Source: Arthonia radiata
Taxonomy: Eukaryota > Ascomycota > Arthoniomycetes > Arthoniales > Arthoniaceae
NCBI GenBank assembly: GCA_002989075.1
Contig: PSQN01000017.1
Span: 1,922,001-1,986,000, forward strand
DNA: 64,000 bases
Direction: 5' to 3'
Under the pieces are notes generated by a model. The model had not been told where the DNA came from, did no database searches, and worked only from the letters and a program-made list of their open reading frames with translations. Shown piece by piece: positions 19,046-64,000 of the stretch. The translations under genes were made by a program, and so were the position numbers. Position 1 is the stretch's first letter. Every line of letters starts with the position of its first letter.

Positions 19046-21042
19046 AGTAGAACTTATTTAGTATACTACTTATACTAAAAAGAATAAAAAAAGATATTAC
19101 TCTATATATAGATATGCTTTAAAAAATATATAATAAAATATATTATTAACTTAGCTATAGCTACTATAGCTGATATAAAAAAGTTTTTTATATTAATATA
19201 AAGTTTAATATAAAAACTTAAGAACTTTTTAAGCTTTTTATAGAAAAAAAAACTAAGTTACTAAATAGTAAAATATGAAATCTAAGTTAGACTATAGTTT
19301 ACTATATATATTTATTTTCATAAATTAAGATAAAGCTAATTAAATAAGATCTTTTAAAAAATCTACTTAAAGATATAAATAAGCTTTTAAAGAAAGTTTA
19401 GTATAGTATAGAATTTCTATACTCCTACTAATATAAACTAAGATTACTTAGATAGTAGATTAAGAATAAACTATAGTAGTTATAATATTTAAATAACTGT
19501 ATAAATACTAAGCTATAAATAAAATAGCATATATTAAAAATAAGATAACTTACTAGTTTGACTAAGAGATACTAGCTCTACTACATAGAGATAACTAGAG
19601 TTAATATATAGTAAAGTATATGTTATATACTTTATATATAATAAGAAGAGATACTATACTATAGAGAATACTATATTCTAAACTAGTATATATTTAGTAC
19701 TAGTAAAATTAAAGAATAATAGATTTTAAGAGTAAGTTTTATATATCTAAAGCTTAGAGCTATTAATTAATAGTAAGAATAAATTAAAGTCTTAGTATAG
19801 CTAGATAGGTTACTATAAGAGATTCTTATACTTATAAATTCTAGTATAGATATTAACCTTATTAATTACTATATTATACTTAAATAAGAATAGTAAAAGT
19901 TATATAAAGTAGAGCTTCTATATATTAAGTTTTTTAATAAAAACAAGCTATAGCTCTATAGTATATATAATATAAATATAACTATAAAAGATATATATAA
20001 ACAGAAATAGTATTACTAACTCTATCTATATTTAGCTAACTTTATAAAATATAGTCTTATCTTATAATATTAATAGCTTAAGTAAGTTAAGCTTTAAATT
20101 AGCTAAATAATAAAGATAATTACTTAGAAAAACTTTTCTTTATCTAAAAAATAGATAATCAGAGCTAAATTTTGTAAAATTATTAGTAAAGATATAATTC
20201 TAGTATATTTATAAAGAGAAAGTAGTACTATTTTATAATTCTATAAATAGAAGTAAATAAATACAATAAGTATTAAATATTAGTTTACTACTAGATTAGA
20301 CTTTAGATAGTAAGTTTAAGAAAGTAGAAAAGTATCTAAGATAAGCTTTCTTTTTAGTATACTAAATATGAAAATATCTTTTTTAAAAAACTATTATATA
20401 AGCTTATACTACTTAGTAAGTATACTTATAAAATTAAGCTTAAAAATAGTATAAAACTTCTATATAAGCTAATCTATTCTATATCATAAAATAAGCTAAA
20501 AATACTTTAAGATTATCTAAATACTATAATTGGAAAAAAATACAACTCTCTACTAGTTTAGTAAATACTTTAGTTTAGTTTATATTTAAGATAAATAAAG
20601 TATTAAAACTATATATAAACTACTATAAATTAAATAATATAACTATAAAGAGTTACTATATATTACTACTAGTCTCTAAGATTCTTAATTATTTATAAAG
20701 CTTAAAGATATTTATAAAGCTTAACCTTTAAGATACCTATTACTATATCTATATCTATAAAAAAATAAAAAAACAGTATTTTATATCTAATATAAGTACT
20801 ATAAGTACTTAGTAATATCTTTTAAGCTAGTAAATATTTCTACTATATTTTAGATATATATTTATAGAGCTATAGATAATCTTATTAATACTCTATGTAC
20901 TACCTATATAAATAATATATTAAATTTTTTTTAAAGATAAGAAAAGCTATAAAAGCTATATTAAAGAAGTTCTATAAAGGCTCTCTCTATAAATAGAGTT
21001 TATTTATAAAGCTATTTAAGTACTAATTTTATACTACTAAGG
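19046..21042 (+). mobile_element. Family A chromovirus fragment A0, left part (oldest host of the nest)
   Basis: Heavily decayed plus-strand copy of family A covering late gag, protease and RT, equivalent to about 26262-28283 of A1. It lacks the LTR and first part of gag, being cut off where the hAT right arm ends. At its right end B1 is inserted with TSD TAAGG (21038-21042 and 63941-63945), and A0 continues at 63946. The frame is broken many times, more than in any other family A copy here, which fits its place as the outermost element. Confidence 0.85.
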
Positions 21043-21492
21043 TGTTACGATCTTACTACATTAGGCTAGTATAGAGCTAAGCGCAGTCAGCCTTATTAAA
21101 GCATTATACAGTATACCCGATGACTCCGATATAGCGACGTCGGTAATATCGCTATATCGCAATAAAATTCCGATCACGCGACAAAGAGATTGTCGGGACC
21201 GTCGAATACAGGGAAACATACCTTTATATCTTAGACTATATAGTTAGACTGATGGCCGACCTTAAGATAAACTTTAGTCTGTTAACTTAATATCTGAATA
21301 CAAGTTTCTTGACTATATTCAAGTAACGTATTTTACCTTCTGTCTACTTTAATTAAGCCTCTCTTACCTTTTATAATCTATCTTGTCTCTTCTACCTTTT
21401 AGTCTCTAGCACACAAAACACTCCTTACTAAGGTTAATAAGTATACAAGGTAAGTAAGCCTTAGTTCGGTCCTTCTAGCGACCGGCATTATA
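21043..21492 (+). repeat. 5' LTR of B1 (450 bp)
   Basis: Begins TGTTACGATC and ends in accggcattata. The 3' two thirds (from about 21205) match the E1 LTR; the first roughly 160 bp do not. Paired with 63491-63940, which has the same length. Confidence 0.9.
21127..21159. promoter_or_regulatory. Hairpin-forming inverted repeat in B1 U3
   Basis: CGATATAGCGA at 21127-21137 and its exact reverse complement TCGCTATATCG at 21149-21159, separated by 11 bp. The 3' LTR has a decayed version near 63570-63605. It lies in the upstream part of the LTR, where an LTR promoter or its control sites would be expected. A role as a protein-binding site or RNA hairpin is inference only. Confidence 0.35.
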
Positions 21493-24400
21493 CTTTAATA
21501 GACTCGCTATAAAAGTAGAGAAAGCAGATTAATTATATTTACTACTTCGGTACTTAATAGCCGCGACGCTGTAAACAGGCTAGCTTGCAAAATAGCCGCT
21601 ACAGGTAAGATATTGAACGTTAACACTAAGATAGATAAAAGCTTCTTTAATAAACGTTTTGAACTTACTTTATTTCTAATACGCTTAGCTATATATTTTA
21701 AGACTTATAATAATTAGTTTTCGAATAACAGTACTATAGTTTTGTTTACCGCATTCTATATAGATAGCAAGACATATAAATAGTTTAACTTTTATCTTAA
21801 AGACTATCTTTATAAAGTATCTAATAAACGATAAGAGAAGACCGACGAACTCTTCTCTAGCTTTACTACGTTTTAGTAAAAGCTCTGACAGATGTATAGG
21901 AATATCGATTTCGGACGTACTGCTATACGTAAACTTAAGACACTCCGCTAAATAGAACCAGCTAGCCGATACGCCGCTAAGTTTCTATAATATACTAACT
22001 AAACTAAATAGAATAAAGGACCTCTAGTCGACGCCTTTTATAAAAGATTAAAGAACTATATTAAGGAAATCATCTATATCCGTAGAGAGAAGTTTACCGA
22101 ACTAAAAAAGTTTATAGAACGAGCCAAGGAAATCGACGACAGCAACTTTAAACGACAGTTAAAAAAGAAAGGAGCTAACTTAGATAAGTTTATCTAAACT
22201 TAAAGTAAGTACAACTTACAACAAGACCGGGGTAATCTAATAGAATTAAGCTTTACGAAGCTCCGTAGAAAACTAAATAACTAGAAACAAGAACACAGAA
22301 TAAAGAATAAGCTATACTTGTATTGCGAAAAACTAGAGTATTAAGTTAAAGAATGTCGTTCCAAAAAACAACAGTTTAACAGTACTGGCAGAAATAGACA
22401 CAACAATCGATCTCGGAAACCTCGTTTTCCGCGACAATAGTTTAATATAACTACTTAGATACCGGCGAATAAGAATTAGAACAAAGCAAAAAACCTACTG
22501 GCAACTTTTATAGATCGTTGAGACTTGTACTTAAAGATTAGCTAGGATTGTTACAACCCTACCGAATCTACTAAGGAAGAAAAAAAGAATCCTAACTTAT
22601 TCGAGTTGTACGCAAACTAAGATACAGATAATAAGTTATAGGATAAAACAAAAGAACGACAAAGGAAATAGAAACAATAAAGTCTATAGAACTGAAACAA
22701 TATTAACTGTATTATTCTAAGGCAACAGATATAAAATACCGTTACACTACACAAAAAACTATTCTAGACTGCGTGCTACAATAACGATTGTACGATCCAC
22801 AAATCTAACAAATTAGAATTAGAATAGTAGCCGAAGAAACTAACATCTCTAAAACAAGGTTCGACACAAGAACTAGGCCTTATCTGAGGACAATCTAGAT
22901 TACCTTATCTAAAAACTTAAGAGGAATTTAAGGAAGAACAGACCGTAGAAACTAAGTAAGATAGTAACTATAATGCGTTATAGGCAAGACAACGACTCGA
23001 AGACAAAAATATAGATTCTAATGGTACAGAATTCTTGCTCGAGAACGATACTAACTAAAAAGAACAAACCTTAATTCGTTAGGAAGGAATAATATAGAGA
23101 CTTTGTTAGTTAGCCTTCTACAATAAGAAGTTAAACGCTAATAGAGACATTAATAATATTCTAGAATATATTTATTTACGTCTACAATAACTAATAAACT
23201 ACCTTATTAGAGGTTTAGAATTATATAGTCAATACCAATATCTTTGACTAACAATATATAACCTATAAATACGACAGGTTTTAACTAGCGATAGTTGTAT
23301 AATTAAGACAAAGATTGTAAACAATAAATTAGACGTTATAATAAAGGTAGTACTAAAACACCTTATATAGAAACTCTTATAACAAATTAACCGACAATAG
23401 GTTTCGATATCTAAAATACTTTAGAACGTATACGATTAATAGGGAAAAGACTAGACTAACTGCTTTAAGGATAGTAGTACCGGCCCGTTTAACGGTTAGA
23501 CCCTCTAAGAGCTTAGCTCTATACGAGCTCGGCTTCTTATAGAATATACCTACACACTCGGACAACAATAAACTATAGAAACATTAAAATTATAATCGAT
23601 TTAGGCGTAATAGGTAACTTTATCTTAATACGCTATGTTAAGGAGTATTAAATATAAATATAAAAGAAGAAATTACTTTATATACTGTTTAGATTTTAAG
23701 GGGCAGAGGAAAGAGTCGACTACAAGACTTTGCCAATAGGTATAATAATTAGAGACTATTAGAAAGAAATTACTTATAATATTATAGATATTAACCAGTA
23801 CTATGCTATACTAAGTATACCTTAGTTATAACAATATAACTTAAAAGTAGATTAAAGAACTAAGAAACTCCTCTTTACTAGATATAAGTACTCTAAATAA
23901 GAGTCGTTCTATAGAATAAATACTCTATAAGCTATCTTTAGTAGTAAAAATAAGAAGTATAATAAAGAACTTACGCGGATTAGTACTACTATACTTTAAT
24001 ACTTAGATATTTTATAAGAGAAGTTTAATGTAGTATCTTGTCTATAGCTAACTATACGTAAGTATAAATAAGAGACAACTGTACGCTAACGATTCTATAC
24101 GACAACAAGTACTTAGTTAATTACTAAGATACTCGAGAAATATAATTAATTCTAATATCTGTTTAAGGAAGCTAAGCCGAACTTAGCTCTTTTAGAATAC
24201 AAACCGTAGAATTATACAATATCTTTATAAGAAGGCAAGACGCTAATATTTAGTTTAATATACTCTCTATTAGAAGTAGAAAATTAAGCACTCTGCGACT
24301 ATCTTAACAAAAATCTTAAGAAAAGATTTATTTAGAAATTAATATTACTAGCCAGATACCTGATACTCTTTATACTAAAGAAGAATAGTAAACTTCGACT

Positions 24401-25280
24401 CTACGTAGATTATAGACAATTAAACAGAGTAACTATTAAAAACCAATACCCTTTACTACGCATCGACGAAATAACAGACTAATTATATAACGTATAATAG
24501 TTTACTAAGTTTAATCTATAAAGAGCCTATAACTTAATCTGTATAAAGAAAGATAAAGAATAGAAAACGGCCTTCTATACTAGATACAGACTTTTTAAGT
24601 ATTGCGTTATATCTTTTAGGCTAATAAACGCACTAGCATTATTTTAAAAACTAATTAACAATATATTTAGTAATTACCTAGATATATTTATAACTACTTA
24701 TTTAAACGATATGCTAGTATACAGCCGTATACTAGAAAAATATAAAAAATATATTAAGAAGGTATTAGAAAGATTAGCGCGTACCGATTTATAAATTAAT
24801 ATCGAGAAAACCTAGTTTTATCAATAATTTGTCGAATTTCTTAGATTTATAATTACCGAGCACGGTCTCTAAATAGAAGATTTAAAGATTTAATCTGTTC
24901 TAACTTAGCCTATACTAAAGAATATAAAATAATTGCAACAGTTTCTTAGTTTTATTAACTACTATAGACAACAGATATCTAACTTTAGCCGAATTACAGT
25001 ACCGCTGTCTCAGCAAATAAAACAATCGATAGAATTCTCTTAGACGCAAAAGAAACAATTAGTATTTAAAGAACTTAAGAAAGCTTTTAAGATTAAGTCC
25101 GTACTAGCAATACTTAACCCTAACCTACCGATTATTATAAAAATAGACGCGTTAGACTATACAATTAGAGTATATATAAGTTAAAATAACAAAGAAAGAA
25201 AGCTTAGACCAGTAGCTTTCTACTCAAAAAAAATATTATCTATAGAACAGAACTATAATATTTACAATAAAGAGCTCTTA
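21493..25280 (+). pseudogene. B1 gag-pol fossil, first part
   Basis: Gag from about 21530; zinc-knuckle region at about 22315-22360; protease near 23585-23650, recognised by an I-I-I-D-L-G block; RT about 24270-24900; RNase H from about 25120 to the A1 insertion at 25281. The order and spacing match E1. The open minus-strand frame 23377-23568 is an antisense shadow with an exact counterpart in E1 (51333-51524). Many breaks. Confidence 0.8.
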
Positions 25281-25476
25281 TGTAATGTATAAACGTCTCG
25301 ATAGCAAATTAAGACGAAATATTGTCTATTTGGGAAGACTGCGATTCTAGAAGAATATCTTCCGTCCAGTAAACGCATCCCTTTCTTTTCTCCTCAATAA
25401 TTAGCTTAAACACTAGTAGAGCCTATTTAGGCCCTTTTTGCTATCTAACTGCTTTCTGCCCTACACCCAGATTATA
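25281..25476 (+). repeat. 5' LTR of A1 (196 bp)
   Basis: TGTAATG start, GATTATA end (TG...CA ends after RIP). The leader 25477-25615 starts with a conserved block containing GGCGGCCGGCAGTTAG (25504-25519) shared with A2 and A3. I see no convincing tRNA primer site next to the LTR; a self-priming mechanism is possible but not shown. Confidence 0.9.
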
Positions 25477-25615
25477 TTCTAATTATTTTAAACCTACAAG
25501 GGAGGCGGCCGGCAGTTAGATATCTTATTAACGTTGCTTAAAGGTTAATCCTCTATAACTAAGTATAGCCGAGACTCTATATACACGTTAAAATAAATAA
25601 TATTAAAATTAATTA

Positions 25616-28600
25616 ATGGCCGGTGCTAGCAAGTACCGTGTTTGAAGAGAACAAGCAAGGAACTAAGCACGCGACGGTAGTCGCTTTATATCCGCTATAC
25701 AAGCAAAATACAGAGCGTAGCAAAATATAGCTAATACCGAAGAAGACTAGAACTCTTATATAGGATTCGGCGACAACAATAAATAAGAAGGCTTATAAGC
25801 CGGTAAATAGACGCCGAGTAGATTGTAAACTAAGAAGAACGATAGTCTAAAGCAAAACAATAACGACGACAAAGGGGCCTATTAAGGCTTTAACCGCAAA
25901 GAATTCCTCTTTAGCGCCTTCTTAAGCGTTAAAGTACGAAAGCTAAGACAAAAACTGCTAGCACAGTAGTAGCAGTATACTATTAAAAAGCTTAAGCTTA
26001 AAAAGTAAATACTCGACGTTAAGCTTTAGTTTATCTGTAATTTAGAAGCTAATAGCAAGCAACTATAGAGCAATTTAAGCCTTTAAAGCTAGATTATCGA
26101 GCTTCTTAAGAAAGAGACGTCTAAGCTTAAAAGAGCTATAAACTTTATAGACACTTAATAAACTTAAACTATTAAGAAAAGATTTTAAATAGTTAATATA
26201 TTAGACCTTAATAATGTTTATATTATTACTTAGTACCTTTAAGAACTCTCTAAAGACCTAGTAGATAGATAGCGAGCTTATACCGAAGAGAATAAAGAGA
26301 AGACGTCGCTCTACGTATAAGCGTACTTTAAAAAATAGATAATAAAATATATCGTTAATCTAGCTACGGCTACTATAGCTAACGTAAAAAGGTTCTTTAT
26401 ATCGATATAGAGTTTAACGTAGAAGCTTAAGAACTTTTTAAGCTTTCTACAAAACAAAGAAACTAAGTTGCTAGATAGTAAGATATTGAACCTAAATTAA
26501 GCCGTATTTTACTATATACGCTTACTTTTATAAATTAAGGTAAAGCTAATTAAGTAAAGTCTCTTAAAGAATCTGCTTAAAGATATAAATAAGCTTCTAA
26601 AGAAAGTTTATTAATATATAAATATTGATCGTAGTATATTATAGAACGCCTACAATACTAATATAAACTAAGATTACTTCGATAGCGGATCGAATATAAA
26701 CTATAGCGTTTATAACGCTAGAGCATCTCTATAGGGGTCGGACCGCAGACAAGGCGGTTTATACCAAGGATAAGGCAACTTACCGGTCCAATAAAGAGAC
26801 AATAGCTCTACTGTATAGAGGCAACTAGGGTCGATATACAGTAAGGCAAATATTATCTACTTTACGTACAATTAGAAAGAGTATTATACTACTAAATGTA
26901 CTATACCCCAAACTAGTGTTAATTTAACGCTAGTTACATAGAAAAACGATAGACTTTAAGGGTAAGTCTCGCGTTTTTAAAGCTTAAAGCTGTCAATTAA
27001 CGGCAAGAATAAATTAAAGTCTCGATACAGCTAGATAAATTACTATAAGAGGTCCTCGCGCTAGTAGATTTTGATACAAAGATTAATCTTATTAATTATT
27101 GTATTGTGCTTAAAAGAGGATAGCAAAAATTGTATAGAATAAAGCTTCTGTATACTAAGTTTCTTAATAAAAATAAGCTATAGCTCTATAGCGCGTATAA
27201 TATAAATATAACCGTAAGAAACGTATATAGAGAGAAACGGTATTACTAACTCTGTCTATATTTAGCTAACTTTATAGGATACAGTCTCGTCTTAGGATAT
27301 CTATAGCTTAAGTAAGTTAAGCTCTAAATTAGCTAAGCAACAAAAACAATTACTTAGGAAAACCTCTCTGCGTCCGAAGAACGGGTAGCAAAAGCTAAAT
27401 CTATTAAGATTGTTAGTAAAGATATAATTTTAGTATATTTATAAAGAGGCGAACAGTACTACTCCGCGATTCTATAGATAGAAGCGGATAAACGTTATAA
27501 GTATTAAATAGCGGTTCTATTAGATGTTAGTTTACCGCTAGACCGGACTTTAGATAGCGAGCCTAAGAAAGTAGAGAAGCAAGATAAGCTTCCTTCTTAG
27601 TACGCTAAATATAAAGATATCTTTTCTAAAAAACTATCGAGTAAGCTTGCGCTACTTAATAAGTATACTTATAAGATTAAGCTTAAAAATAGTATAGAAC
27701 CTCTGTATAAGTTAATCTACTCTATATCGTAGAATAAGCTAAAGACGCTTCGAAAGTACCTAGATACTATAATTAAAAAAGGGTAGATACAACCCTCTAC
27801 TAGTTCGGCGGGTGCCTCGATTCTATTTATACTTAAGGTAGACAGATCGTTAAGACTATATATTAACTACCGTAGTTTAAACAATATAACTGTAAAGAAT
27901 TGCTACGCATTACCGCTAGTCTCTAAGATTCTTAATCGCCTGCAAGGCTCGAAGGTATTTATAAAGCTTAATCTTTACGATATCTATTATTGTATCTGTA
28001 TTTATAAAGGAGATAAGTAGAAGACAGCGTTTTATATCCGATACGGGTACTATAAATACCTAGTAATACCTTTTAGACTAGCAAACGCCTCTGCTACGTT
28101 CTAGATATATATTTATAAAGCTATAGGTAATCTTATTAATACCGTATATATCGTTTATATAGACAATATCTTAATTTTCTTTAAAGACGAGAAAAGCTAT
28201 AAAGGCTATATTAAAGAAGTCCTGTAAAGGCTCTATAAATAGGATTTATTTATAAAGCTGTTTAAGTGTTAATTTTACACTACCAAGGTTTCTTTCCTAA
28301 GGTTCACCGTAAGAGTCGATAGTATCGAAATAGACCTAAAAAGGGTACAGAATATAGCCGAATAGCTAGTTTCTACCACCGTAAAGCAGATCCTGTCCTT
28401 TCTAGAGTTTGTAAACTTCTACCAGCGATTTATCTATAGATTTAGCCGCATCGTAGCGCCAATAAACGTACTAACAAAAGACATTAAGTTTGTTTAGAGC
28501 AAAGCTTAATAAGAAGCTTTTAAAGCGCTAAAGCAAGCCTTTATAAATGTATTAGTGCTAACGTACTTTAACCCGATACTATCGATCGTTTTAATAACTA

Positions 28601-30678
28601 ATATATTAGACTTTATAATAGTAGACATCTTACTTTAGCTAAGAAGAGATAGCTAATTAATATTGCCGTTAAATATTAACTTAAACTTATTTATACTAGA
28701 TATAGCGGACACCGTCGAAACTAGTATTAATAACAAGATAGACATACATCTGTATTTAATAGCGTTCTTTTTAAAGAAATTTGTAGACGCTAAGTTAAGA
28801 TATAATATCTATAATAAAGAGCTTATAATAATATAGACTAGCTTTAAGTACTAGCGCTATTACCTTATTAATATATAGTACTTAGTAAAGATTGTAACAG
28901 ACTACAATAATCTATAATATTTTATAATAACAAAAGTATTGTCTTGCCGACAGACGCGCTAGATAGAAGATCTATTAGTATTTAACTTTAAAATACTATA
29001 CCGTACGAATAGCAAGAACTTAGTAGACGCGCTGTTACGCCGTCTAGATTATAAGAATCTACGTAGAGTAAAGAAAGATAACGCTAACAAAATATTATCG
29101 AGTCTATAGCAGAAGCTTAGAAGAGATACTGCTTTACTTAGTACCAGAGAGAAGCTCTCTAGTCTAAAAGAAGGTATAACTGCTATCTTAATTATATTGC
29201 TTAAAGATTAGTTTAAATACTATTAGCGGTTTAGCTACCGATTTAAAATTTTAAACGCGACTATAGTCTAAGTCGAGGGTAGATCGAAGTTAGATACAGA
29301 CCTTATATAGGATATCTAGAAGCGAGAAACGTGTCCGTCTTTCTCTACTAATACAGAGCCTTTTCCGGTAGCTCTCGTATTACGAGTTAAGGTAGTTGCA
29401 GCTACCGCTCTTAAAACAGCTTACAATAATACTTCTCGAGGTCTTGCAGCCTTAATCTTAGAAGTCTAACAAGGAGACACCTTTATAAAGTAAAAAGTAT
29501 TAGAGTTAAAGTTATTAGCTAAGACTAAAGATTAATATAGCGATAAAACGGCAGCGAATCGCCGTTAAGCCGGTATAAGAAAGCGCTGTACGAGTCGAAT
29601 CGACTTAAATGCTCTAATAGAGCTTAAGTTAAACTCTAAGTCGTTAAAGTATATAAAATAGTTAGTTAACAGCTACAAGTTGTTACATTAAGGTAATAAA
29701 ATCTAGATATTAAAATACCCTGTATTGAAGCTAAAAGTTATAAGCCGGAATTATAATAATAAGCTTGCTGGTTACTTTAAGGTTAAAAAGACTCTAAAGA
29801 TCTTAAGGCGTAAATATACGTAAGAGAATATAGCAACGTACATTAAAAACTTTATTACTGAATACGACGTATGTCAGCGCACTGCTGTAAAAAGGTATAA
29901 GCTATACAGCAAAATAGCGGCGATGTTGGTCCCGATTGGCCTCTTTAAGGACCTGTCTTTAGACTTTGTCGTTAAATTGCTAATAGTACGCTTGAAGAAC
30001 GAAGATATTGTTAATTTAATTTTTATAGTTGTTAACCGCTTCTTAAAGTTTGTAAGCTATATTCTAGTTAGAGAGACTATAAATGCTATAGAGCTGGTAA
30101 AAGTGCTTTATAAGCACTAAGCGAAAACGTTGGGATTCCCAAGAAGCCTCCTGTCTAATAGAGGATCTATATTTACTAGCTTATATTAAAGCACCTTCTA
30201 TCAATATCTAGCCGTAAAACGAAGGTTAAGCACAGCGTTTTACCCTCAGACTAATAGTTAAACCGAGCGTTAAAACTAGAAGCTTAAAAACTATCTATGT
30301 ATCTATATCTCTTAGAATTAAGTTAATTAGTATAAGTACCTAAAAGAAGCTGCTTTTACGTATAACTCGAAAATTTATTTATTAACGAAGATATTGCCGA
30401 TTAAATATGCGTTCGGTTGTATTGTAGACGTACTAGACGGCATACCGCCGCTAAATCGGCACCGTACCGTAGTTAAGCTAAAGAACCTTCCTATCGGTAA
30501 GAACACCTTTTATTAAGAAGGAAGGTAGTTTAGATCAGAACACCCTATAACAGTTAAGTATATAGAAGAACGCCTTCTCTGCTAATAAGAAATAAAGCAG
30601 CAGCTAGAAAAAGCTTAGCGTCTATAGACAAAATAGTATAATACTAAGTATACACTAAAACACTATATAGTAGATAAT
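25616..30678 (+). pseudogene. A1 gag-pol fossil up to the A2 insertion
   Basis: Gag start ATG at 25616-25618 (MAGASKY). Lysine/leucine-rich coiled-coil-like gag to about 26900, protease about 26950-27250, RT about 27650-28330, RNase H about 28440-29010, integrase from about 29600. The open stretch 29923-30120 is genuine integrase-core frame (GLFKDLSLDFVVKLL, then IVVNRF). It ends in the integrase C-terminal region at 30678, where A2 is inserted. Many breaks. Confidence 0.8.
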
Positions 30679-30874
30679 TGTAATGCATAAACGTCCCGAT
30701 AGCGAATTAAGACAGAATGTTGCTTATTTAGGAAGGCTGCGATCCTAAGAGAATATCTTTCCTCTAGTAGACGCATCCCTTTTTAGTCTCCTTAATAATT
30801 AGCTTGAACACTAGTAGAGCCTATTTAGGCCCTTTTTGCTACCTAACTGCTCCCTGCCCTATATCTAGATTATA
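30679..30874 (+). repeat. 5' LTR of A2 (196 bp)
   Basis: TGTAATG start, GATTATA end. Followed by the family A leader (30875-31013). Confidence 0.9.
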
Positions 30875-31013
30875 TCCTAATTATTCTAAACCTATAAGGA
30901 GGGCGGCCGGCAGTTAGGTACCTTATCGACGTCGCTTAGAGGTCAACCCGGCATAATCGAGTATAGCCGAGACTCTGTATATACGTTAAAATAAATAATA
31001 TTAAAATTAATTG

Positions 31014-33529: not shown

Positions 33530-33534
33530 CTTAT

Positions 33535-53300: not shown

Positions 53301-54980
53301 TATATACGGACCACAAGAACCTAACTTATTTTACGACAACAAAGAAACTTAACCGCAGACAAGTTAGATGGTTAGAAACTATAGCTCCGTACGACTTTAT
53401 TATTACCTACAAGAAGGGTTCCGAGAACGATAGAGCTGACGCTCTAAGCCGACGACCCGATTATCTCAATAACAAGGAACACGTCGAGCATGCGATATTC
53501 TGAGCACACAATAACGAGATCAGATACAATCAACTAGCTATAACAACAGAGTTTGTTATCGAACCGGACAGCCGAATCTCAGACATCCTAAACGATCCTA
53601 AAACCTACCAGGAAAACGAGAAACGACACCTAGGACTAACTAAAAACAGCAAGAGCTATTACGAATTTTAAGGCAAGATCTACGTTCCGAGGAATCTAAT
53701 CCGACACATTATCAGTAACTTTCACGATAACCCAACGAAGGGACACAAGGGCATCGACAACACTATTGAGAAGATTACACGAACCTACTACATCCCGAGA
53801 ATCCGACACTACGTCGAGGATTATATCCGAAAATACGACATATGCGCAAGAACTAAGCACCCGAGGTACTCACCATACAGTGAACTACAACCACTCGAGA
53901 CACCCGAGAGACTATAGCATACAGTCTTACTAAACTTTATTACCAAGTTACCAACCTCCGAGGATCTACTCACAGGAGTAGCTTACGACGCTATCCTAGT
54001 TATATGCGACAAACTAACAAAGTACGCGTACTTCGTATCTTACAAGGAAGCCAGCAACTCAGAACAATTAGTATATACCTTCCTTCGAATTGTCTTAGCA
54101 AACTATGGTCAACCACAAAGAATTGTCTCGGACAGAGACCGGAAATTCGTCTCACGATTTTAGGCATCTCTGATGCAACAGCTAGGGACAAAGCAAAAGA
54201 TATTAACGTCGTTCTACCCGCAAACAGACGGACAGACAGAACGAACAAATTAAACACTAGAACAGTATCTCCGGGCATATATCAACTACCAGCAGAACGA
54301 CTGGGTACAATTACTACTAGTAGCACAAGCAGCGCACAACGATACGAAAAACGACACGACCAAAACAACACCGTTCTATGCCTTATACGGCTATTACCCT
54401 CTTCAGGGCAGACAACTGCAAAACACTACAAAAAACGACACTGCTACACGAATAGCGACGAATATAAAGACCCTGCATCAGCAGTTAAAGGCTGACAGCG
54501 AGTTTATTAACGAACGAACAAGGAAATAGTATAACAAATCAAGGGCGACCCCGAATACAAGCATAAAAGAGGGGGAAAGAGCTTACTTACTCATAAGAAA
54601 CTTAAAAACTATCAGACTAAGCAAGAAACTCGACTACACTAAAATAGAACTGTTTAAAATCTTACAGCAATTGAGACCCGTAACCTTCAAACTTAAACTC
54701 CCGAGGACAATAAGAATACACCCTGTATTCTACGTAGCGCTGTTGAAGCCAGCCTACTCCCGAGAAGCAGAACGACCCAACCCAGAAATCCTTCCTAACA
54801 ACTAAGAACCCGAGTATGAGGTTAAAACGATTCGAGCTCACAGACAACATCGAGGCAAACAACAGTATCTCATAAAGTAGAAAGAATATCCCGAACATAA
54901 AAATTAATAGGAACCGGAACGAAACCTAACTAACTATAAAGACACCATCCAACGATATCGGAACCAAAATATTAATCGGT
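50331..54980 (+). pseudogene. E1 pol fossil (protease, RT, RNase H, integrase, chromodomain)
   Basis: A spacer of about 1.2 kb (50331-51530) precedes the protease, whose active-site block IIIDLGATGNFIS is at 51545-51583. RT about 52230-52870: the open stretch 52565-52828 has MPFGLTNAPASFQ and the YLDD box at 52655-52666. RNase H about 53090-53500 starts ETDASDYTIGA. Integrase zinc-binding region about 53690-53860. Integrase core about 53920-54440 has VSDRDRKF and QTDGQTERTN, which carry conserved acidic residues of the DDE centre. Chromodomain about 54811-54975 (EYEVKTIRAHRQHRG then QQYLIK). The 163-residue frame 54004-54495 is an out-of-frame overlap. Tens of breaks. Confidence 0.85.
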
Positions 54981-55058
54981 CGTAGCAGCACTAACACCCT
55001 AATCCACTACCTAATGTACCTCGCCGGCACCCAGATCACCCTCAAACGAACCAGCCTA

Positions 55059-55286
55059 CTACGTTACAGGACTACCACCCAACACCGGGTAGGGATCACT
55101 CCGAAAGTCAACAGATAACCCGCTCGGACATTTGAATATATTATCACTAGCCATCGACGCAGCAAACTCCTCTTGCTTCAACAACTTATTTCGAGCTAGC
55201 TTCGCTGCTGCCCGCGCACGAGTCTTCTTAACTTCCTCTTTCAACTTCCGAACCTTAGATCGGTTACGCTGTACAGCCGCAACCAA
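55059..55286 (-). CDS. Antisense coiled-coil open frame in the 3' tail of E1 (hypothetical)
   Basis: Minus-strand open frame of 75 codons running against gag-pol, downstream of the chromodomain. Residues 1-45 are dense in lysine, arginine, alanine and glutamate with heptad-like spacing (RNRSKVRKLKEEVKKTRARA, then KLARNKLLKQEE), consistent with a basic coiled coil. The C-terminal 30 residues form a separate block (GLSVDFRSDP, then PVLGGSPVT). The start chosen is the first in-frame ATG; a longer product cannot be excluded. The related but diverged B1 tail keeps a similar pattern in the same antisense frame (62780-63130). That argues for past coding on this strand, though RIP also tends to leave antisense frames open by chance. 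It could be an element-encoded accessory protein or a captured host fragment; no function is assigned. Confidence 0.35.
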   Translation of the reverse strand: MVAAVQRNRSKVRKLKEEVKKTRARAAAKLARNKLLKQEEFAASMASDNIFKCPSGLSVDFRSDPYPVLGGSPVT

Positions 55287-55739
55287 CGCTGCTGCCTAAG
55301 CCTTTGACGCACGTAATTGGCTCTTCGCACGCTGAAGGGCAGCCGACTAAGAGGAATATTGAGAATAAACCGAACGCGCTGCAATTAAGTCAGTTCCGAT
55401 CACCACAAAACGACACTAACAAGGCATACTATCTGCCATTAACACCCGTAAATCACAACTCTTCCTATCCCGAGTACACACCGAACACGTCGCCTTCCTA
55501 GACTAAACCACACATCTTTCCTTAATCGACACACATCTAGAACAAGGAGGCATTTCGATACCGCAGGCTTTAATTAACAGGTATTAGCTGTACTTTTTAT
55601 TAGGACCTACAGCAACGGACTTTATACGAGGCATAGCGACTTACAGATTAGTTACGAAAGGGAAGGACGAACGCAACTTATAGGTGTTTGAAAGGCTAAG
55701 GGTCAATCGAGAACAATTTAACTAGAAGAGGGGGGATTG
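55287..55739 (+). other. E1 3' tail and polypurine tract
   Basis: Untranslated tail between the antisense frame and the 3' LTR. A plus-strand frame at 55304-55501 has no recognisable content. The purine run gaagaggggggatt at 55725-55738 next to the LTR is a classic polypurine tract. Confidence 0.6.
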
Positions 55740-56211
55740 TGTTACAGGCACCAGCCCCAGACGGCCTAGCGTGCATCTAAGTATTAACCACCGCCAGTTA
55801 TCTTAGCCCTACCAGCATTATTCCCGACTAAGCCTATAAACCCGCCGTAGGCATTATCGGACAAGACGGCTATAAGAGTCTACGTTCCTTATAAACCCGA
55901 TATAGGCATTATCGAAATTAACAGACATAGAGGAACTTCCCTATGTACCTTAGATTATATAGCCAAACTAATAGCCGACCTTAGAATAGACTTCAGTCTA
56001 TTAACTTAACATCTGAATACAAGTTTCTTAACTATATTTAGGTAACGTACTTCACCTTCTGTCTACTCTAGTTAAGCCCCTCTTACCCTTAGTAATCTGT
56101 CTCGCCTCTCCTGCCTTTCAGTCTCTAGCACACGAGACACCCACCACCAAGGTCGACAAGCACACAAGGCAAGTGAGCCTTAGTTCGGCCCTCCCAGCGA
56201 CCGGCGTTACA
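55740..56211 (+). repeat. 3' LTR of E1 (472 bp)
   Basis: Keeps the intact TG...CA ends (TGTTACAGG ... GGCGTTACA). Followed by TSD CAGCC and the D coding region. Confidence 0.93.
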
Positions 56212-56216
56212 CAGCC

Positions 56217-59100
56217 CTTAACTACCCAGCGGGCTTTAAAAATCGGCTCGCTCTCCGGGGGGTACTTAATCTTCGGTACTCAGCGCCCTTTTAGCGCCTT
56301 TCTACCTAGCAGCAGCTCAGTTAATATCTAATTTTCTTAGTTAGCTAGCTCTTTAAGCTCCGACTGTATTGCGTTTAGCTAAGAAGGCTAATCCTTGGAT
56401 GCTCTTATTTCTTTTAAGTTATTAGGCTCTTTAGTAACTATAACTAAGGTCTGTTTGGCGTATTGTTCTAGGTTATTGTAGAACTTGTTAAATTAATTTT
56501 TATCGGCGTTTTCGTATGTAAAATTTTTTTCTGGGCGCAATCGATGTCTACCCGGCCGGGGTCTTTAGTACTTCTGTAATCTAACTCGGTAAGAAGGTTA
56601 GACTCTTCTAGAGCTCTAGTTTAGTATAGTTCTTGTCTAGATTCGTCCGCTAGTTGTTAAGATATAGGGGGGGTATACTGTTTCTTATATAGAGGACTCT
56701 CTTCTTTATTAGAAGGTACCTTCCTATTATCTTAAGATTTAGTGGTCGGATTTAGCTCGTTTTTGAACTTAACTTTTAGTTGTTCTTCAAGCTCTTTAGG
56801 AATGCTCTTAGTTAATCGATTAACCGTAGATCTCTGTAGGTCTCAAACAAATTTTTCTTCTTGGACGTAGACGTCTCTCCCCTAGTAAACCTTCCGGCTA
56901 TTAGAGTCTAAGAGCTTATATTCGTTCGATCTGTAGCCTATTAAGATATAGGCAGTTGCTCTAGCGTCTAGTTTTTTTAGTTTGGGTTCTTTAAGATAAG
57001 TAACTGAGCCCCAGATTTTAATAGTACTGACATCCAGTTTTTTACCGTATCTTGCTTCGTACGGGGTAATAAACCCTGGTAATCTGGTATAAGAGGTTCT
57101 GTTATAAATATAGATAGCTGCTTTTAGCGCTTTATCTCAATATATCTAGAGTAGCCCGGCGGTATAAAGCATTGCTCGAACTTTACTAACAATTGTTCGG
57201 TTAAAGCGTTCGGCTCGTCTATTTTGCTGAGGGGTATACGGTACGAATATCGTTAGAATAGCTTCTTTTTGTTCTAAAAGCTGTTTTACCCGGCCTTCCC
57301 GATATTCTTTTATATTGTTTAAGTATAGTCTTTTAAAAGGATGCTCGAACTGCGTTTCTTTCTAAGTAATATAGATAGATAGTGTATTAAAAACCTAATC
57401 TTTAGACTATAGTATCTCGATAGTTGTATACCGGGTTTTATTGTCTATAAAGCTAGTAAATAATTGACCTTTGGAAGGGGTTTGCGGTACAATTGGCCCG
57501 CAAATATCTAAGTAGACTTTTTCTAAATAATTAGCTAATTTGTCCGGAGTTTCTTGGCTAACTTTAGCCGTTGCCTTTGCTTCGAAGTAAATTTAGTAAT
57601 TATCTCTCAATTTGTCTGAATGATCTGTTCCTAGGGCAACCTTTTTAAGCTGTTTTAAGGCGTTTTCGCCTATATATCCTATTTGTTGATGCTAAAGGTC
57701 AGTTTTCGAAAAAATAGTATAGAGAGATCGGACTATATTGATAGTCTGAGCTTTTATTACTATTAGGCCGTTAATATACCGCCCCTCGGTAATTAGTTGT
57801 CCGGCCCAATTAACTTTTGGCTTATTTTAGCTAAGAGTTACCTTACCTCCCCTCTTTCTAAGCTTATTAAAGCTTAGAAGGTTAATTCTAAATTTCTTAA
57901 CAAATAAAACTTTGTCTAGGACAATTGTTTTATTTTTAAAGAATAGTTTTGCTTTGCCTGTCTATACGGCTCGGATTAACTTCCCCCCTTCTCAACGAAT
58001 AATCTGGTTAGTTGGCCGGATATCCGTTAGAAGGTCAATATTCGAGTAAATATAGCTTGTTAAGCTTGTATCGAGGATCTAAGAATTAATAGAGTGATTA
58101 ACTCTATCTAATAATGCTGTAAAGCATTGTTCTTCTTGTAGATTAGAACTGTGTACAGAAAATATTAAAAAATCGGTGTTTTCGGAGCTTTTGTTGGAAT
58201 TTAACCGGAGGTTTGAGTATTTTTTCCAACAAGTTGCCGGTTTATGCTCCTTTTTGTTGCAAAAGAGGCATTTTTCTTGGTTTTTACTTAGAGATTTTAA
58301 TTTTTCTCCGGTCCTTTGCGTCAATTTGTTGTCTATTGCAGTAAAAACCTTTTCTACTGGAGTACTACCACGAATTTAGCGAGACTCGTCTATAAGTTAA
58401 CTAAATAAGTCCTATAGACTTATATTGCTAGTCGTTTGCCGATAGCTTTGGCTAATAATAGCTACCATGTGCTCGTATTCGGAGGTCAGATTGTAGAGGA
58501 CGTAGGCAGCTACCACCTTGTTAGGTAGTACTAGTCCTCGGGTTACCAAATCGTCCGTTAATTGCCTAATTTTAGTAAGGTAAAGCTTAAGGTTTTTTAT
58601 CTTACTAAGTGTAGTGCTAAAGAGCTCCTTATAAATTAGAAACTCGAAACTAAAACCTTTCGATTCGTATAACCTTTTTAGACTATCTCAAAGCTCTAGA
58701 GAGTTATAGATCCCCTTTATTTAAATAAGGGAACCGTCTTCTAGAGTTAGTTGAATAAGGGCTACTGCCCTTGTCGACCGTTTCTAGCGGCTAGCTTCGG
58801 TAATATCTCTAGCTAAATAGCCGGAAAAGGGGATTATAACATTACTGTAGCTCTTTTTAGTTAAAAGGGCCTCCATTCGAATCGATCAAATGTCTCAATT
58901 AGTCGAGCCCTTGAGTTTAGGAATCTTATAAGAGGAGTTTATAGCCAAATATATAGTCGGAGATTTCTAAAAAAAAGGAAATCTCTGTTCTAATAGTTAA
59001 ATTGGGCTAAAAATTTAGAGTCGATTGGTAATAGAATCGTTCGGAGGTGCCGATAGATGTCGTAGGGGAAATATTTTCTAAAAAGAAAATTCGAAAGAAA
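56217..59100 (-). pseudogene. D gag-pol fossil: gag, protease, integrase, start of RT
   Basis: Reading leftward: gag from about 58990 (a copia-type UBN2-like gag with SIRMEALLTKK near 58860). The zinc knuckle CLFCNKKEHKPATC lies in the open stretch 58324-58079. Protease follows about 58080-57900, a GAG-pre-integrase segment near 57700, and integrase about 57560-57000 with TSFIDNKTRY, the P-Y-T-P-Q-Q-N block near 57230, and RAERFNRTI. A linker leads to RT, whose first residues (RWVVKG) end at 56217. Lightly broken. The plus-strand frame 58176-58379 is a shadow. Confidence 0.85.
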
Positions 59101-59109
59101 TTGGTGCTA

Positions 59110-59125
59110 ACCCGGGCTTATAACC
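59110..59125 (-). other. Primer binding site of D, half-tRNA type (initiator tRNA-Met)
   Basis: On the minus strand the bases next to the 5' LTR read GGTTATAAGCCCGGG. The plus strand (cccgggcttataacc, 59111-59125) is nearly the anticodon arm of eukaryotic initiator tRNA-Met, with the CTCATAA loop changed at one base. This is the site type used by Drosophila copia, primed by a cleaved 5' half of initiator tRNA rather than by the tRNA 3' end. Confidence 0.6.
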
Positions 59126-59634
59126 TGTTAAGAAAGATACAGAAAAGAAGAAGAATACTACTATAAAGAGTAGAAAGACAAGACTAGCTTAGAACTAATA
59201 CAATACTTAAACTTGGTACAGGTACAATACTTAGTAACAAAGAGAAGCTGTTGTTATATTGTCTGGCTTGTTAGCTAGAATTCTCTAGAGAGATTCTAGC
59301 TTATATATTTAAGTCTAGCGGCCCGTATAGAACTTACTAGATATCTATTCTTTTTAATAGGGGCTAGATAACCTGTAACTTACTATATAAGATAGTAATT
59401 CCGTCTATCTAAAACTATTAGTCTCTAAGTTTATTCTATATTGTCTTAGACTACAGGCCAGCTGTCTAGAATAGATCGTATAATGCTTCTTTTTGTCTTA
59501 GGCCCGGGCTACTAGGCCCGATCCTTTAAATAAAAGGCTTGTTCTATTCTAGACCGAGACAGCTAGTAGAACCTGTTCAATACTTCGGGCCTCTAAGGGT
59601 TCCGACTAACCAGCTAGTTGGTTAATTTCCAATA
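59126..59634 (-). repeat. 5' LTR of D (509 bp)
   Basis: Pairs with 46872-47380 at identical length. Followed on the plus strand by AAGTT and the A1 3' region. Confidence 0.9.
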
Positions 59635-59639
59635 AAGTT

Positions 59640-60799
59640 GAAGTTCGCGGAAAATCTACTATATACAGCTATATCGCTAAATAAGACCTTTATGCAACGG
59701 CAGTATACCGGAACGTAAGCCTCTAGCTAAGGCTAAATTAACGTAGATACGGCGCAAAAAGCGGGATTCGAGGAGATAAATTAGCAAGACTTTATAAGCG
59801 ACTCGGGCTTATAAGCAGTACCGCGGTAATAAAGAGAACGGACAATCTTATTATTGTTAAAGTTGTCTTTATAGATATAACGCTTTTAACGAGCTAAAAT
59901 ATTAACAGTTAGACTAAGATAAAGCAATAAGAGAGAGAAGACTTATAAGAAGTTGTAAAAGTTAAAGATACGCTATCTAGTTTAAAAGAGTATAAAATAA
60001 AAAAAGCTGCAGATAATTTAGAAATTAGTGAAGCAACCTTAGAAGCTTTCTTTTTACGAACGTTATAAAGAAAAGCTTTAAGATTAACGGCGGCTTTAGA
60101 GTCCTTAATGCTGCGAGTTAAGTAGCAAGTTAGTGCTTTAGAAGAGCTCGCTCTAGCAGCAGGTTTATTAACGGAGTTAAAACTTAATATAGTAGAGATT
60201 ATAAAGGCGAATTAAAGACAATCTAACACTAAATTAGCTACAAACTTCTTGCCTAAGAAGAGAAGTAAAGGCTTACTAAAGAAGAGAAGCTTGCAGGTTA
60301 AGTAGAAGAGTATAATAATATTAAAGAAAGAAAGAGAAAGTTTAAAAGAGCAGGAGCCTTATTTTATGCCTATCGTTAGGTACCGATAACAAAGCTTCTA
60401 CCTATAGATACTAATTTAGAAGCAAAGAAGCCTATTTACGCTAGTTACTACTACCTATAGAGGCAATTAATCGGTAAAAGCGTATATAAGAGTATACAAA
60501 AGAACGTAAAATTAGGTAAAAATAATATAAAACCTTACTATCGAGCTTATAACTTAGGCTCGGGAGCTTTAGATTAAAAGTAAAGCTTAGCACTACAACT
60601 CGATGCTGCAGAAAACTAGTACTAAACGACGCGTAGAATGACAGTAAGCAATATTACTCTTTTTCCGACTAAACGCAGATATAAGCTAGCAGGTTTTTAA
60701 CGAGGTTATTGCTCTGCGTAACATAAGAGATAGAAGGTACGATAGATATAGCGAATTGCACCCAGATCGAGGGCGATTCTTTTTAAGGGGAAGGGTAGT
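59640..60799 (+). other. A1 3' region, second part, with unassigned reading frame
   Basis: Resumes after D and its TSD; matches 44255-45412 of A2. It contains the same coiled-coil-like plus-strand frame as A2 (about 60020-60380), broken several times. The last bases before the LTR (aaggggaagggtagt, 60785-60799) are the polypurine tract used to prime plus-strand synthesis. Confidence 0.6.
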
Positions 60800-60995
60800 T
60801 ATAATATATAAACGTCTCGATGGCAAATTAAAACAAAATATTATCTATTTGGGAAGGCTACGATCCTGAAAGGATATCTTCTGTCTAGTAGACGCATCCC
60901 TTTCTTTTCTCCTCAATAATTAGCTTAAACACTAGTAGAGCCTATTTGAGCCCTTTTTGCCACCTAACTGCTTCCTGCCCTACACCCAGATTATA
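60800..60995 (+). repeat. 3' LTR of A1 (196 bp)
   Basis: Pairs with 25281-25476. Followed by TSD TCTTA and then B1 RNase H sequence. Confidence 0.9.
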
Positions 60996-61000
60996 TCTTA

Positions 61001-62725
61001 ACTATTATAGCAGCATTTAAAATATAGGAAGCTTATTTAAAAGAAGCAAACTATATAATTATAGTATATATAGACTATAAGAATCTAACTTACTTTACAA
61101 CAACAAAGAAACTTAACTACAGACAAGTTAAATAGTTAGAAACTATAGCTCTATACAACTTTATTATTACTTACAAGAAGGGTTCTAAGAACAATAAAGC
61201 CGACGCTCTAAGCCGACGTCTTAATTACCTCAATAACAAGAAATACGTCGAGCACGCAATATTCTAAGAGTACAATAACGAGATTAGATACAATTAATTG
61301 GCTATAACAACCGAGTTTGTTATCGAATTAGATAGCCGAATCTCAGATATCCTAAACGACCCTAAAACTTACTAGAAAAACGAGAAACGACATTTAAGAT
61401 TAACTAAGAATAGTAAAGGCTATTACAAATTTTAAGGCAAAATCTATATCTTAAGAAATCTAATCCAATATATTATTAGTAACTTCTACGATAACTCAAC
61501 AAAAGAATATAAAGGTATTAATAATACTATAGAAAAGATTATAAGAATCTACTATATCCCGAGAATTCGACATTACGTAGAGAATTATATTCGAGAATGC
61601 GATATATACGTAAGAACTAAACACCTAAGATATTTACTATATAGTAAACTATAGTTACTAAAAATACCCGAAAGGCTATAGTATATAGTCTTACTAGACT
61701 TTATTACTAAACTACTAATTTTTAAGGATCTACTTATAGAAATAGCTTACAAAGCTATTTTAGTTATATACAACAAACTAACAAAGTACGTATACTTCGT
61801 ACCTTATAAGAAAGCTAGCAATTTAGAACAATTAGTATATATATTCCTTCGGATTATTCTAGCGAACTATAGTTAATTACAAAGAATTGTCTTAAACAGA
61901 GATTAAAAATTTGTCTTACGATTTTAAACATCTCTAATGCAACAATTAGAAACAAAATAGAAAATATTAACGTTATTCTATCTATAAACAGACAGATAAA
62001 CAGAAGAAACAAATTAAACACTAGAACAGTATCTTTAGATATATATTAACTACCAGCAAAACGACTAAGTACAATTACTACTAGTAGCGTAAGCCGCGTA
62101 CAATAATACAAAGAACAATATAACTAAGATAACTCTATTTTATATCTTATATAGCTATTACCCTCTTTAAAGAAGACAACTATAAAAAACTATAAAAAAC
62201 AAATTAGCTACGTAAATAGCTATAAGTATAAAAGCCCTGTACTAGTAGTTAAAGTCTAACAGCAAGTTTATTAACAAACGAACAAGAAAATAGTATAATA
62301 AGTTAAAAACTACCCTAAATATAAGTATAAAAGAAGAGAAAAAAGCTTACTTACTTATAAGAAACGTAAAGACTATTAAATTAAATAAGAAACTTAACTA
62401 TACTAAAACAAGACTGTTTAAAATCTTACAGCAATTAGAGCCTGTAACATTTAAACTTAAACTCTTAAAAACAATAAGAATATATTCTATATTCTATGTA
62501 GCGCTATTAAAGCTAGTCTACTTCTAAGAAGTAGAACGATTTAACTTAGAAATCCTTTCTAACAACTAAGAATCTGAGTATAAGGTCGAAATAATTTAAG
62601 CTTATAGACAATATCGAGGCAAACAACAGTATCTTATAAAATAGAGAGAATATTCCAAATATAAAAATTAATGGGAACCGAAATAAAACCTGACTAAATA
62701 TAAAGATACTATTTAACGATATTAA
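61001..62725 (+). pseudogene. B1 pol fossil, second part (RNase H end, integrase, chromodomain)
   Basis: Resumes after A1 and its TSD. RNase H remainder to about 61250, integrase zinc-binding region about 61440-61620, integrase core about 61660-62200 (T-K-Y then a Q-T-D region, as in E1), GPY/F-type C-terminal part, and a chromodomain at about 62570-62725. These positions come from alignment with 53240-54975 of E1. Many breaks. Confidence 0.8.
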
Positions 62726-62779
62726 AACTAGAATATTAATCGGTTGTAGCAGTACTAATACTCTAATTTACTATCTAAT

Positions 62780-63130
62780 ACGCCCCGCTGGCACCTAAAT
62801 TATCTATAAACGAACTAGCTTACTATGTTAGTAGCCTACTACCTAACTCTAGATACAGATTATTACAAAAATTTATACTTAAGCTACTTAATATATCTAT
62901 AATATTACTACTAAATATAGCCGCTAGCTATTCTTCTTTAAACAATATATTATTCTAATTTATTTTATTTTACGTCTAAATACACAACCTTTTGAGCTCC
63001 TTCTTTAAATCTATAACTACCGTTTTAATAGCTTTGCGCTATCTTTTCGCCGCACAAACGACTTTCTTCTCTTCTGCTAAACGCTTGCGTTGCTTCTAAA
63101 GGATATTTAATACTTGTAAGTACTAAGAAC
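62780..63130 (-). pseudogene. Decayed counterpart of the E1 antisense frame in B1
   Basis: On the minus strand this stretch reads short runs similar to the antisense open frame of E1 at 55059-55286. A lysine/glutamate-rich helix (DLKKELKRL against KLKEEVKK in E1) is followed by a C-terminal block with a shared pattern (S-S-L-S-I-N-F against P-S-G-L-S-V-D-F, then an L-G-S against L-G-G-S near the end). The substitutions are largely conservative in this frame. It is broken several times. Beyond it, 63131-63490 is a 3' untranslated tail ending in a purine-rich stretch (63473-63485). Confidence 0.4.
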
Positions 63131-63490
63131 GGATACTCCGAGCTAAGTAAGTTAGAACCGACCAAACGGACGTTAGACTAAGAAACTAACCATCCTTTAA
63201 CGACGAACGAACGTTATACGACTTCTTGTCGCGAATATATATAAAGTACAATACCTTCCTAGACTTTAGTATATACTTCTCGCTTAGATAAGAATAATAG
63301 AAACACAGAGGCATCTCTTGGCTATAGACTTTAGTAAGAACAGTATTAATCTTAAGCGCTTTGTTAGCGTTAAAAGCTTTCTTAACTTTAGATATAACGA
63401 CTTACAGAATTAAATCTACTGTAGAGCAACAATAAAGTTTTAATATCTCTAAGACTATTAAGAACAACTAGCCTTAAAGAGAAGATCTTA

Positions 63491-63940
63491 TATTATAATC
63501 TTACTATATTAGACTAATATAGAACTAAGCGCAGCCAACCTTATTAGAGTATTATATAGTATATCTAATAACTCCAATATAGCGATATCGGCAACGTTGC
63601 TATATTGCAATAGAATCCCGACTATACGACAAAGGAATTATTAAGACCGTTAAATATAAAGAAACATACCTTTATACCTTAAACTATATAGTTAGACTAA
63701 TAGCTAATCTTAAGATAGACTTTAGTTTGTTAACTTAATATTTAAATACAAATTTTTTAACTATATTTAAATAACGTACTTTACCTTTTATCTACTTTAG
63801 TTAAGCCCTTCTTATCTTCTATAATCTGTTTTGTCTCTCCTATCTTTTAGTCTCTAGCACACAAGATACCTCTTACCAAGGTCGATAAGTATATAAGATA
63901 AGTAAGCCTTAGTTCGGTCCTTCCAGCGACCGGCGTTATA
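63491..63940 (+). repeat. 3' LTR of B1 (450 bp)
   Basis: Pairs with 21043-21492 and carries the same B1-type U3. It is followed directly by TSD TAAGG and then by family A sequence belonging to A0. Confidence 0.9.
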
Positions 63941-63945
63941 TAAGG

Positions 63946-64000
63946 TTTCTTTTCTAAAGTTTACTATAAAAGTAAAGAGTATTAAAATAGACTTAAAAAG
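63946..64000 (+). mobile_element. Family A fragment A0, right part
   Basis: After the B1 TSD (63941-63945) the sequence continues family A at the point where it stopped at 21042, matching 28287-28341 of A1 (end of RT). It runs off the right edge, so the 3' half and any 3' LTR of A0 are outside the window. Confidence 0.85.

Follow-up and report, generated by a model that had tools for sequence, protein, structure and literature searches.

A nest of mutated long terminal repeat retrotransposons above a CpG-poor layer in a candidate centromere zone of Arthonia radiata

The assembly of Arthonia radiata (GCA_002989075.1) contains, on contig PSQN01000017.1 (here C1), a stretch of 64,000 nt at positions 1,922,001-1,986,000, referred to throughout as the window, in which long terminal repeat (LTR) retrotransposons lie inserted one inside another above a CpG-poor layer, and which is considered here as part of a candidate centromere zone. 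Element ends and target-site duplications (TSDs) were read straight from the letters and repeats were found by self-BLAST of the window; sampled loci elsewhere carry L numbers, and other contigs C numbers. The nest, in window coordinates, is composed as follows.

19069..21042, plus strand: A0, a 5'-truncated relic of family A (probably Ty3/gypsy), GC content (GC) 0.18, no CpG, host of B1
21043..63940, plus strand: B1, family B, containing every inner insertion, LTRs at 21043-21492 and 63491-63940 (450 bp), TSD TAAGG/TAAGG
25281..60995, plus strand: A1, family A, inside B1, LTRs of 196 bp, TSD TCTTA/TCTTA
30679..45608, plus strand: A2, family A, inside A1, LTRs of 196 bp, TSD ATAAT/ATAAT
33535..40458, plus strand: element C, probably Ty3/gypsy-type, inside A2, LTRs of 282 bp, TSD CTTAT/CTTAT
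46872..59634, minus strand: D, Ty1/copia, inside A1, LTRs of 509 bp, TSD AAGTC/AAGTT
48869..56211, plus strand: E1, Ty3/gypsy, sister subfamily of B, inside D, LTRs of 472 bp, TSD CAGCC/CAGCC
63946..64000, plus strand: A0 resumed to the right of B1, running on into L004 (C1:1986001 onwards)

All six elements from B1 inward have both an LTR pair and a 5-bp target duplication, that of D with one C/T difference. Copies lacking the insert were found for five of the junctions. On A1 the site corresponding to element C in A2 is unfilled, two self-BLAST matches abutting within a few bases on the continuous copy, and the site of A1 in B1 is likewise unfilled on a reverse B copy at window 4641-8272. 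The sites of A2 and D in A1 are both unfilled on a reverse A copy in L003, and L014 and L019 contain D copies in which the site of E1 is unfilled. At the sixth junction, B1 in A0, both flanks align to A1, the left one up to position 28288 and the right one from 28285 onwards, an overlap which fits a duplicated target. A0 was in place first, followed by B1 and then by A1; after A1, A2 preceded C and D preceded E1. A preliminary description of this DNA had claimed a five-level nest with TSDs at all six junctions and a strict order of six insertions, and both claims were borne out, the first by termini, duplications and the insert-free copies at five sites, the second by the junctions and by the GC ranking given below. 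The LTR lengths it listed (450, 196, 196, 282, 509 and 472 bp) all hold, self-BLAST recovering every named pair, and its totals for family A were reproduced from the coordinates, A1 being 8012 bp and A2 8001 bp once the inserts are subtracted. Its layout of the nest stood, whereas the start of A0 had to be moved to ~19069, E1 joined to B and D set on the minus strand. It mentioned neither RIP (defined below) nor a candidate centromere, nor that the DNA beneath B1 is in a different state. Misjoined or collapsed repeats might imitate such a structure, the nest being known from the assembly alone and 4691 Ns lying just right of the window (L004:762-5452). An artefact of this kind is nevertheless very improbable given the TSDs at all six insertions, the five sites unfilled in related copies, the B1 flanks that meet on A1 coordinates and a GC that tracks nest depth.

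The left end of A0 was placed at ~19069 as the adjoining repeat ends at 19068, which its copy on contig C9 shows. Alignment of A0 starts at A1 position 26277, so that A0 lacks ~1 kb at the 5' end, and no LTR is in view. Protein scans covered 36 of 219 stop-to-stop pieces of at least 45 aa and 20 more pieces of 36-68 aa; the list of open reading frames holds one of at least 150 aa. In E1 the domains RVT_1, RT_RNaseH, Integrase_H2C2 and SH3_Tf2-1 follow one another in the Ty3/gypsy order, all above cut-off. E1 and B1 have LTR ends in common and 82% identity over 2669 bp of internal sequence, yet differ by 41 transversions in 443 LTR sites; by their sequences they are sister subfamilies, and B1, no piece of which was in the protein scans, was filed as Ty3/gypsy by homology to E1. 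D carries Retrotran_gag_2 and SH3_retrovirus above cut-off and rve_3 and RVT_2 below it, all on the minus strand and in the order gag, integrase, reverse transcriptase, the integrase preceding the reverse transcriptase as in Ty1/copia. For family A, RVT_1 passed the cut-off only if stops were read through (window 1606-2085, minus strand), other pieces remaining below, and the reverse transcriptase, RNase H and SH3 pieces of element C were weak, every match falling below cut-off. No chromodomain appeared in the scanned pieces of A, C and E1, whose frames are broken by stops. Matches to CTU2 and to a PriA-like Pfam family were below cut-off and were taken as chance, and the window gave no hit in searches for tRNAs or Rfam families.

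The whole window bears the mark of repeat-induced point mutation (RIP). In every 2-kb bin TpA/ApT lies at 1.3-2.0 and (CpA+TpG)/(ApC+GpT) at 0.17-0.76, and stops interrupt all 150 RVT_1 matches scored from 550 first-look candidates in the genome. Over the 2105 sites compared in the six LTR pairs, 224 differences are transitions and 1 is a transversion, with 0-1 transversions per pair within an element. What was found is thus the pattern by which RIP is recognised, C to T transitions in repeats with CpA preferred and with stops. The preliminary description had named as grounds for rejecting its nest a finding that paired LTRs are not each other's closest copies, and that is what was observed in 3/3 families searched genome-wide, the search taking in the LTRs of E1, A2 and D rather than those of B1 or C. 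For the E1 LTR three other loci outscored the partner, for A2 the partner ranked 38 of 40 among the matches listed, and for D it was absent among the 41 matches listed; within the window, too, the 5' LTR of D is 90.4% identical to the D solo LTR, which is more than to its own partner (89.2%). We take this to be an effect of RIP hitting each LTR separately, the pairs differing by only 0-1 transversions, and the pairing was retained on the strength of the target duplications and of these transversion counts. The identity of LTR pairs was rejected as a test of either pairing or age, being swamped by RIP transitions. GC behaves differently. It rises inward along A0-B1-A1-A2-C (0.177 < 0.294 < 0.334 < 0.349 < 0.383) and along A1-D-E1 (0.334 < 0.371 < 0.428), and 6 of 5040 orderings are compatible with the nest; GC by element supports the nest order as an independent check.

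Beneath the nest the base composition is of another kind. The DNA to the left of A0 is occupied by an inverted repeat, with the following parts.

10399..14122, minus strand: left arm of the palindrome, a CpG-poor centromere-zone repeat recognised from self-BLAST and genome matches, interrupted by a D solo LTR
10662..11170, plus strand: D-family solo LTR, 509 bp, TSD CTAAT/CTAAT, with no counterpart in the right arm
14123..15719, no strand assigned: palindrome spacer, 17/17 genome matches within the same per-contig zones as the arm
15720..19068, plus strand: right arm of the palindrome, all 54 genome matches of query 15720-18760 within a single zone on each contig

Once the solo LTR is set aside, window 10001-21042 has 15 CpGs in 10,533 bases, and GC is 0.15-0.26 in the 250-bp bins that do not overlap the LTR. 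Window 19046-21042 has 0 CpG against 15.6 expected. CpG returns abruptly at the A0/B1 junction, eight 250-bp bins in a row with 0 CpG giving way to 15 CpGs in the bin that spans 21043, and in the six nested elements the observed/expected (o/e) ratio of CpG is 1.02-1.46 by segment. Measured against the reverse A copy, A0 has lost CpG at 185/193 sites (96%), CpA at 82/89, CpC at 61/115 and CpT at 96/316. The ratio of CpG to CpC loss rates is 4.2, 3.5 and 3.8 in three A0 stretches, two of them outside the window, compared with 0.60-2.53 in nine other A stretches (eight of nine at or below 1.09) and 0.41-2.06 in 21 B/E and 8 D stretches; the alignments had at least 500 columns for A and at least 800 for B/E and D, and the comparison covered families A, B/E and D. 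A0 also differs from other A stretches in transversions (2.4-3.7% vs 0-0.58%) and from other A copies in gaps (9-11 vs 1-2). By these measures A0 would be much older than those copies or else belong to a diverged lineage, and a long interval between the insertions of A0 and B1 is likely. Two simple causes of the CpG loss were set aside. As a plain effect of centromeric position it was rejected for LTR insertions, B1, the reverse B copy and the B copies in L005/L006 all retaining CpG (37-57% of CpG sites lost relative to E1 in aligned stretches), and saturation of the same RIP spectrum is unlikely, the CpG/CpC ratio going from ~1 to ~4 with CpT largely intact.

Two further causes were weighed. 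Methylated CpG in the lower layer may have decayed slowly on top of RIP, or an earlier RIP-like regime may have hit both CpG and CpA and later have been replaced by a CpA-dominated one, so that the insertion of B1 would bracket a change in the specificity of RID or of another DNA methyltransferase. The latter would account for the sharp CpG step at the A0/B1 boundary, for the two-peaked distribution of CpG o/e over 483 AT-rich bins (32 bins below 0.3, 13 bins at 0.3-0.7), and for the A0 ratio being reached by 0/29 B/E and D stretches and 0/9 other A stretches, those B/E stretches with 2-6% transversions included. The genome also encodes a possible set of agents. There is one DIM-2-like protein and there are three single-domain relatives, C5-methyltransferases whose genes all lie on contig C11 (L008, L009 and L010), L008 being 36% identical to L009 and 39% to L010 in the two comparisons made. 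We take the single-domain proteins to be RID-like, and the best PDB chains are presumably those of Neurospora DIM-2. To our knowledge such an expanded RID-like gene set is unusual. For fungal transposons, methylation with subsequent deamination has been put forward as the source of CpG signatures (PMC4352252), and DIM-2 was reported to raise mitotic CpA mutation in Z. tritici (PMC8016269). A0 is, however, far richer in transversions and gaps than other A copies, and age may suffice without any switch of regime. A succession of two regimes is accordingly possible but doubtful, and slow decay of methyl-CpG is narrowly favoured over it.

Genome-wide, the palindrome repeat behaves differently from the retrotransposons. 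The 54 matches of the palindrome arm are spread over 13 of 16 contigs, and on each of these they are all confined to a single stretch of 150 kb. When CpG-free query pieces from contigs C4 and C15 are added, 88/91 matches lie in the zone, and with the spacer (17/17) the total is 105/108 over four queries. The controls, among matches listed, placed 49/150 (RVT_1), 22/41 (D LTR) and 19/40 (E1 LTR) in one such 150-kb stretch per contig. Both ends of C1 carry telomere repeats. On C9, 8 kb of the zone (L033) likewise show a GC of ~0.2, with 15 CpGs and inverted copies of the zone repeat; base composition in the zones refers to the sampled loci. The copies are oppositely oriented on C1 (window 10399-19068) and on C9 (L033), the centre of the C1 palindrome being the outer end on C9. 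A single repeat zone per contig is the pattern expected of centromeres, and the zones marked in this way are candidate centromeres, one on each of 13 contigs, that of C1 apparently inflated by LTR elements. The window might instead belong to one of the dispersed, AT-rich transposon blocks often seen in fungi with active RIP, the palindrome repeat merely happening to cluster there. Matches of RVT_1 and of the E1, D and A2 LTRs do occur in many blocks on many contigs (among matches listed), three contigs lack a zone, and nested blocks were described in Mycosphaerella graminicola when its centromeres were unidentified (PMC4522978). Such an origin is unlikely given the confinement of the palindrome arm to one zone on each of 13 contigs, and given that CpG-free bins were absent from 17/20 other transposable element blocks sampled by RVT_1 position, two of the three exceptions (L024 and L026) ending ~1 and 11.4 kb from a match to the zone repeat and the third being L018, with the kilobase described below. 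D LTRs were found within zones +-30 kb in 12/41 cases, against 4/40 for E1 LTRs (Fisher p 0.049) and 19/150 for RVT_1 (p 0.016), among the best matches listed; targeting of centromere zones by the D family is only suggestive.

The C1 zone, at C1:1.909-2.08 Mb, can be followed beyond the nest on both sides. At its left edge GC falls from 0.5-0.65 to ~0.2 over ~400 bases, after which come 250 bp without CpG and then a B-family element. This element is the base of a second nest, in which the B element (TAGAG) holds an A element (AGATA/AGACA) that in turn holds a B/E-type element (ATCGT). Two parts of this nest lie in the window.

1..4639, minus strand: part of a family A element, inside a family B element, TSD AGATA/AGACA, far end in L002
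4640..9973, minus strand: part of the family B element into which this A copy is inserted, TSD TAGAG/TAGAG, flanked left and right by CpG-poor, AT-rich DNA

To the right follow the palindrome with its D solo LTR, the A0 and B1 nest and a further D in A0 (TSD ATAAC), of which only the ends are seen, the Ns mentioned above lying within it. Four TSD-flanked insertions therefore lie directly in CpG-poor DNA (the left B element, the D solo LTR, B1 and the second D), and all carry CpG; the solo LTR has 11 CpGs, the LTRs of the D element 11 and 9. A CpG-free element inside a CpG-bearing one was not seen, though no systematic search was made. At L004:6150-6670 a CpG-free insert of ~500 bp lies in A0, with a ~10-bp flanking repeat and imperfect inverted ends resembling those of a miniature inverted-repeat transposable element; it has no clear match to the LTRs of the window and fits an older guest of A0. 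By coordinates, later LTR insertions make up 71,485 of the 84,800 bases of C1:1,908,900-1,993,700.

The interpretation which we consider probable is that the window lies in the regional centromere of C1 or in its immediate flank, inflated by nested, RIP-mutated LTR retrotransposons over an older layer depleted of CpG. LTR retrotransposons would insert into the centromere region, the later ones into the earlier ones, and RIP would mutate every new copy from C to T, mostly at CpA, leaving stops, low GC and LTR differences that are almost all transitions. Fast, CpA-led RIP accounts for everything from B1 upward. The lower layer, that is the palindrome repeat and A0, would have stayed long in methylated heterochromatin, methyl-CpG slowly decaying there on top of RIP.

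A number of observations weigh against parts of this interpretation. The CpG comparison draws on a single family A relic, A0. B/E stretches with 1.99-2.08% transversions (L006, L014), and others with 6.0-6.3% (window 21208-22459, L031), keep a CpG/CpC ratio of 1.2-1.6. Transversions in these stretches relative to E1 presumably reflect divergence between subfamilies, and those of A0 could do likewise. Transversions were consequently rejected as a clean measure of age, some B/E stretches standing at 2-6% against E1 with no CpG excess, and the same stretches shift a little weight toward the older regime and away from slow decay. As regards the zones, C7, C8 and C14 gave no match to any of the four zone queries, and 3/108 matches were off-zone (C2:565265, C11:1805072 and C16:1432139). 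L019 and L029 lie within zone spans, yet neither has a CpG-free bin. A CpG-free kilobase with an internal direct repeat of ~200 bp was found outside the C10 zone, ~15 kb from the end of C10 (L018:1-1000), and a nearly CpG-free state may thus also occur near telomeres.

The locus offers a test case, ordered by target duplications, in which RIP deprives LTR divergence of its value as a clock and GC load ranks the insertions correctly, and it illustrates how a zone may grow by successive LTR insertion. AT-rich, nearly CpG-free DNA is a simple sequence mark by which the cores of fungal centromeres may be recognised with no need of chromatin immunoprecipitation (ChIP). If the older regime proved true, the locus would be an ordered section through a change in the mutator of genome defence, with CpG and CpA affected below B1 and CpA dominant above it.

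Much of this is already known in fungi: nested LTR clusters with TSDs and RIP (PMC4522978), and RIP-marked centromeres filled with LTR elements (PMC7482064, PMC9910759). No description of CpG-free centromere cores was noticed in the hit lists of full-text searches of the literature, which is weak evidence of absence. In Verticillium dahliae each chromosome has a CenH3-bound, AT-rich, RIP-marked region filled with repeats; the element VdLTRE9 is largely confined to centromeres, with 186/207 matches there in strain VdLs17, and of three AT-rich regions on chromosome 1 just one is bound by CenH3 (PMC7482064). The word CpG is absent from the main text of that paper (PMC7482064). The likeness lies in a repeat largely confined to one AT-rich, RIP-marked region per chromosome or contig. 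The centromeres of V. dahliae were, however, proven by CenH3 ChIP and Hi-C, whereas that of C1 is proposed from sequence, and the main repeat of V. dahliae is LTR-derived, whereas the marker repeat here is nearly CpG-free, palindromic at C1 and C9, and not traced to an LTR.

Mycosphaerella graminicola, which we take to be the same species as Zymoseptoria tritici, resembles A. radiata in its nested LTR clusters, its 5-bp duplication and its RIP at CpA. It has 78 nested clusters, one of them 47 kb long and built upon an LTR that shows a 5-bp target duplication. RIP acts at CpA, and the nested clusters of N. crassa, M. grisea and F. oxysporum are noted to lie mainly in putative centromeres (PMC4522978). 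The available part of that account describes no CpG-free layer and states that the M. graminicola centromeres were still unidentified, whereas here a CpG-poor layer lies under the nest. Aspergillus flavus has centromeric regions of ~100 kb that are AT-rich and contain RIP-mutated Gypsy elements (PMC9910759), and is like A. radiata in having an AT-rich region that holds such elements. An order of nesting based on TSDs and strata differing in CpG are not described in the available part of the A. flavus paper (PMC9910759), whereas both are seen in A. radiata.

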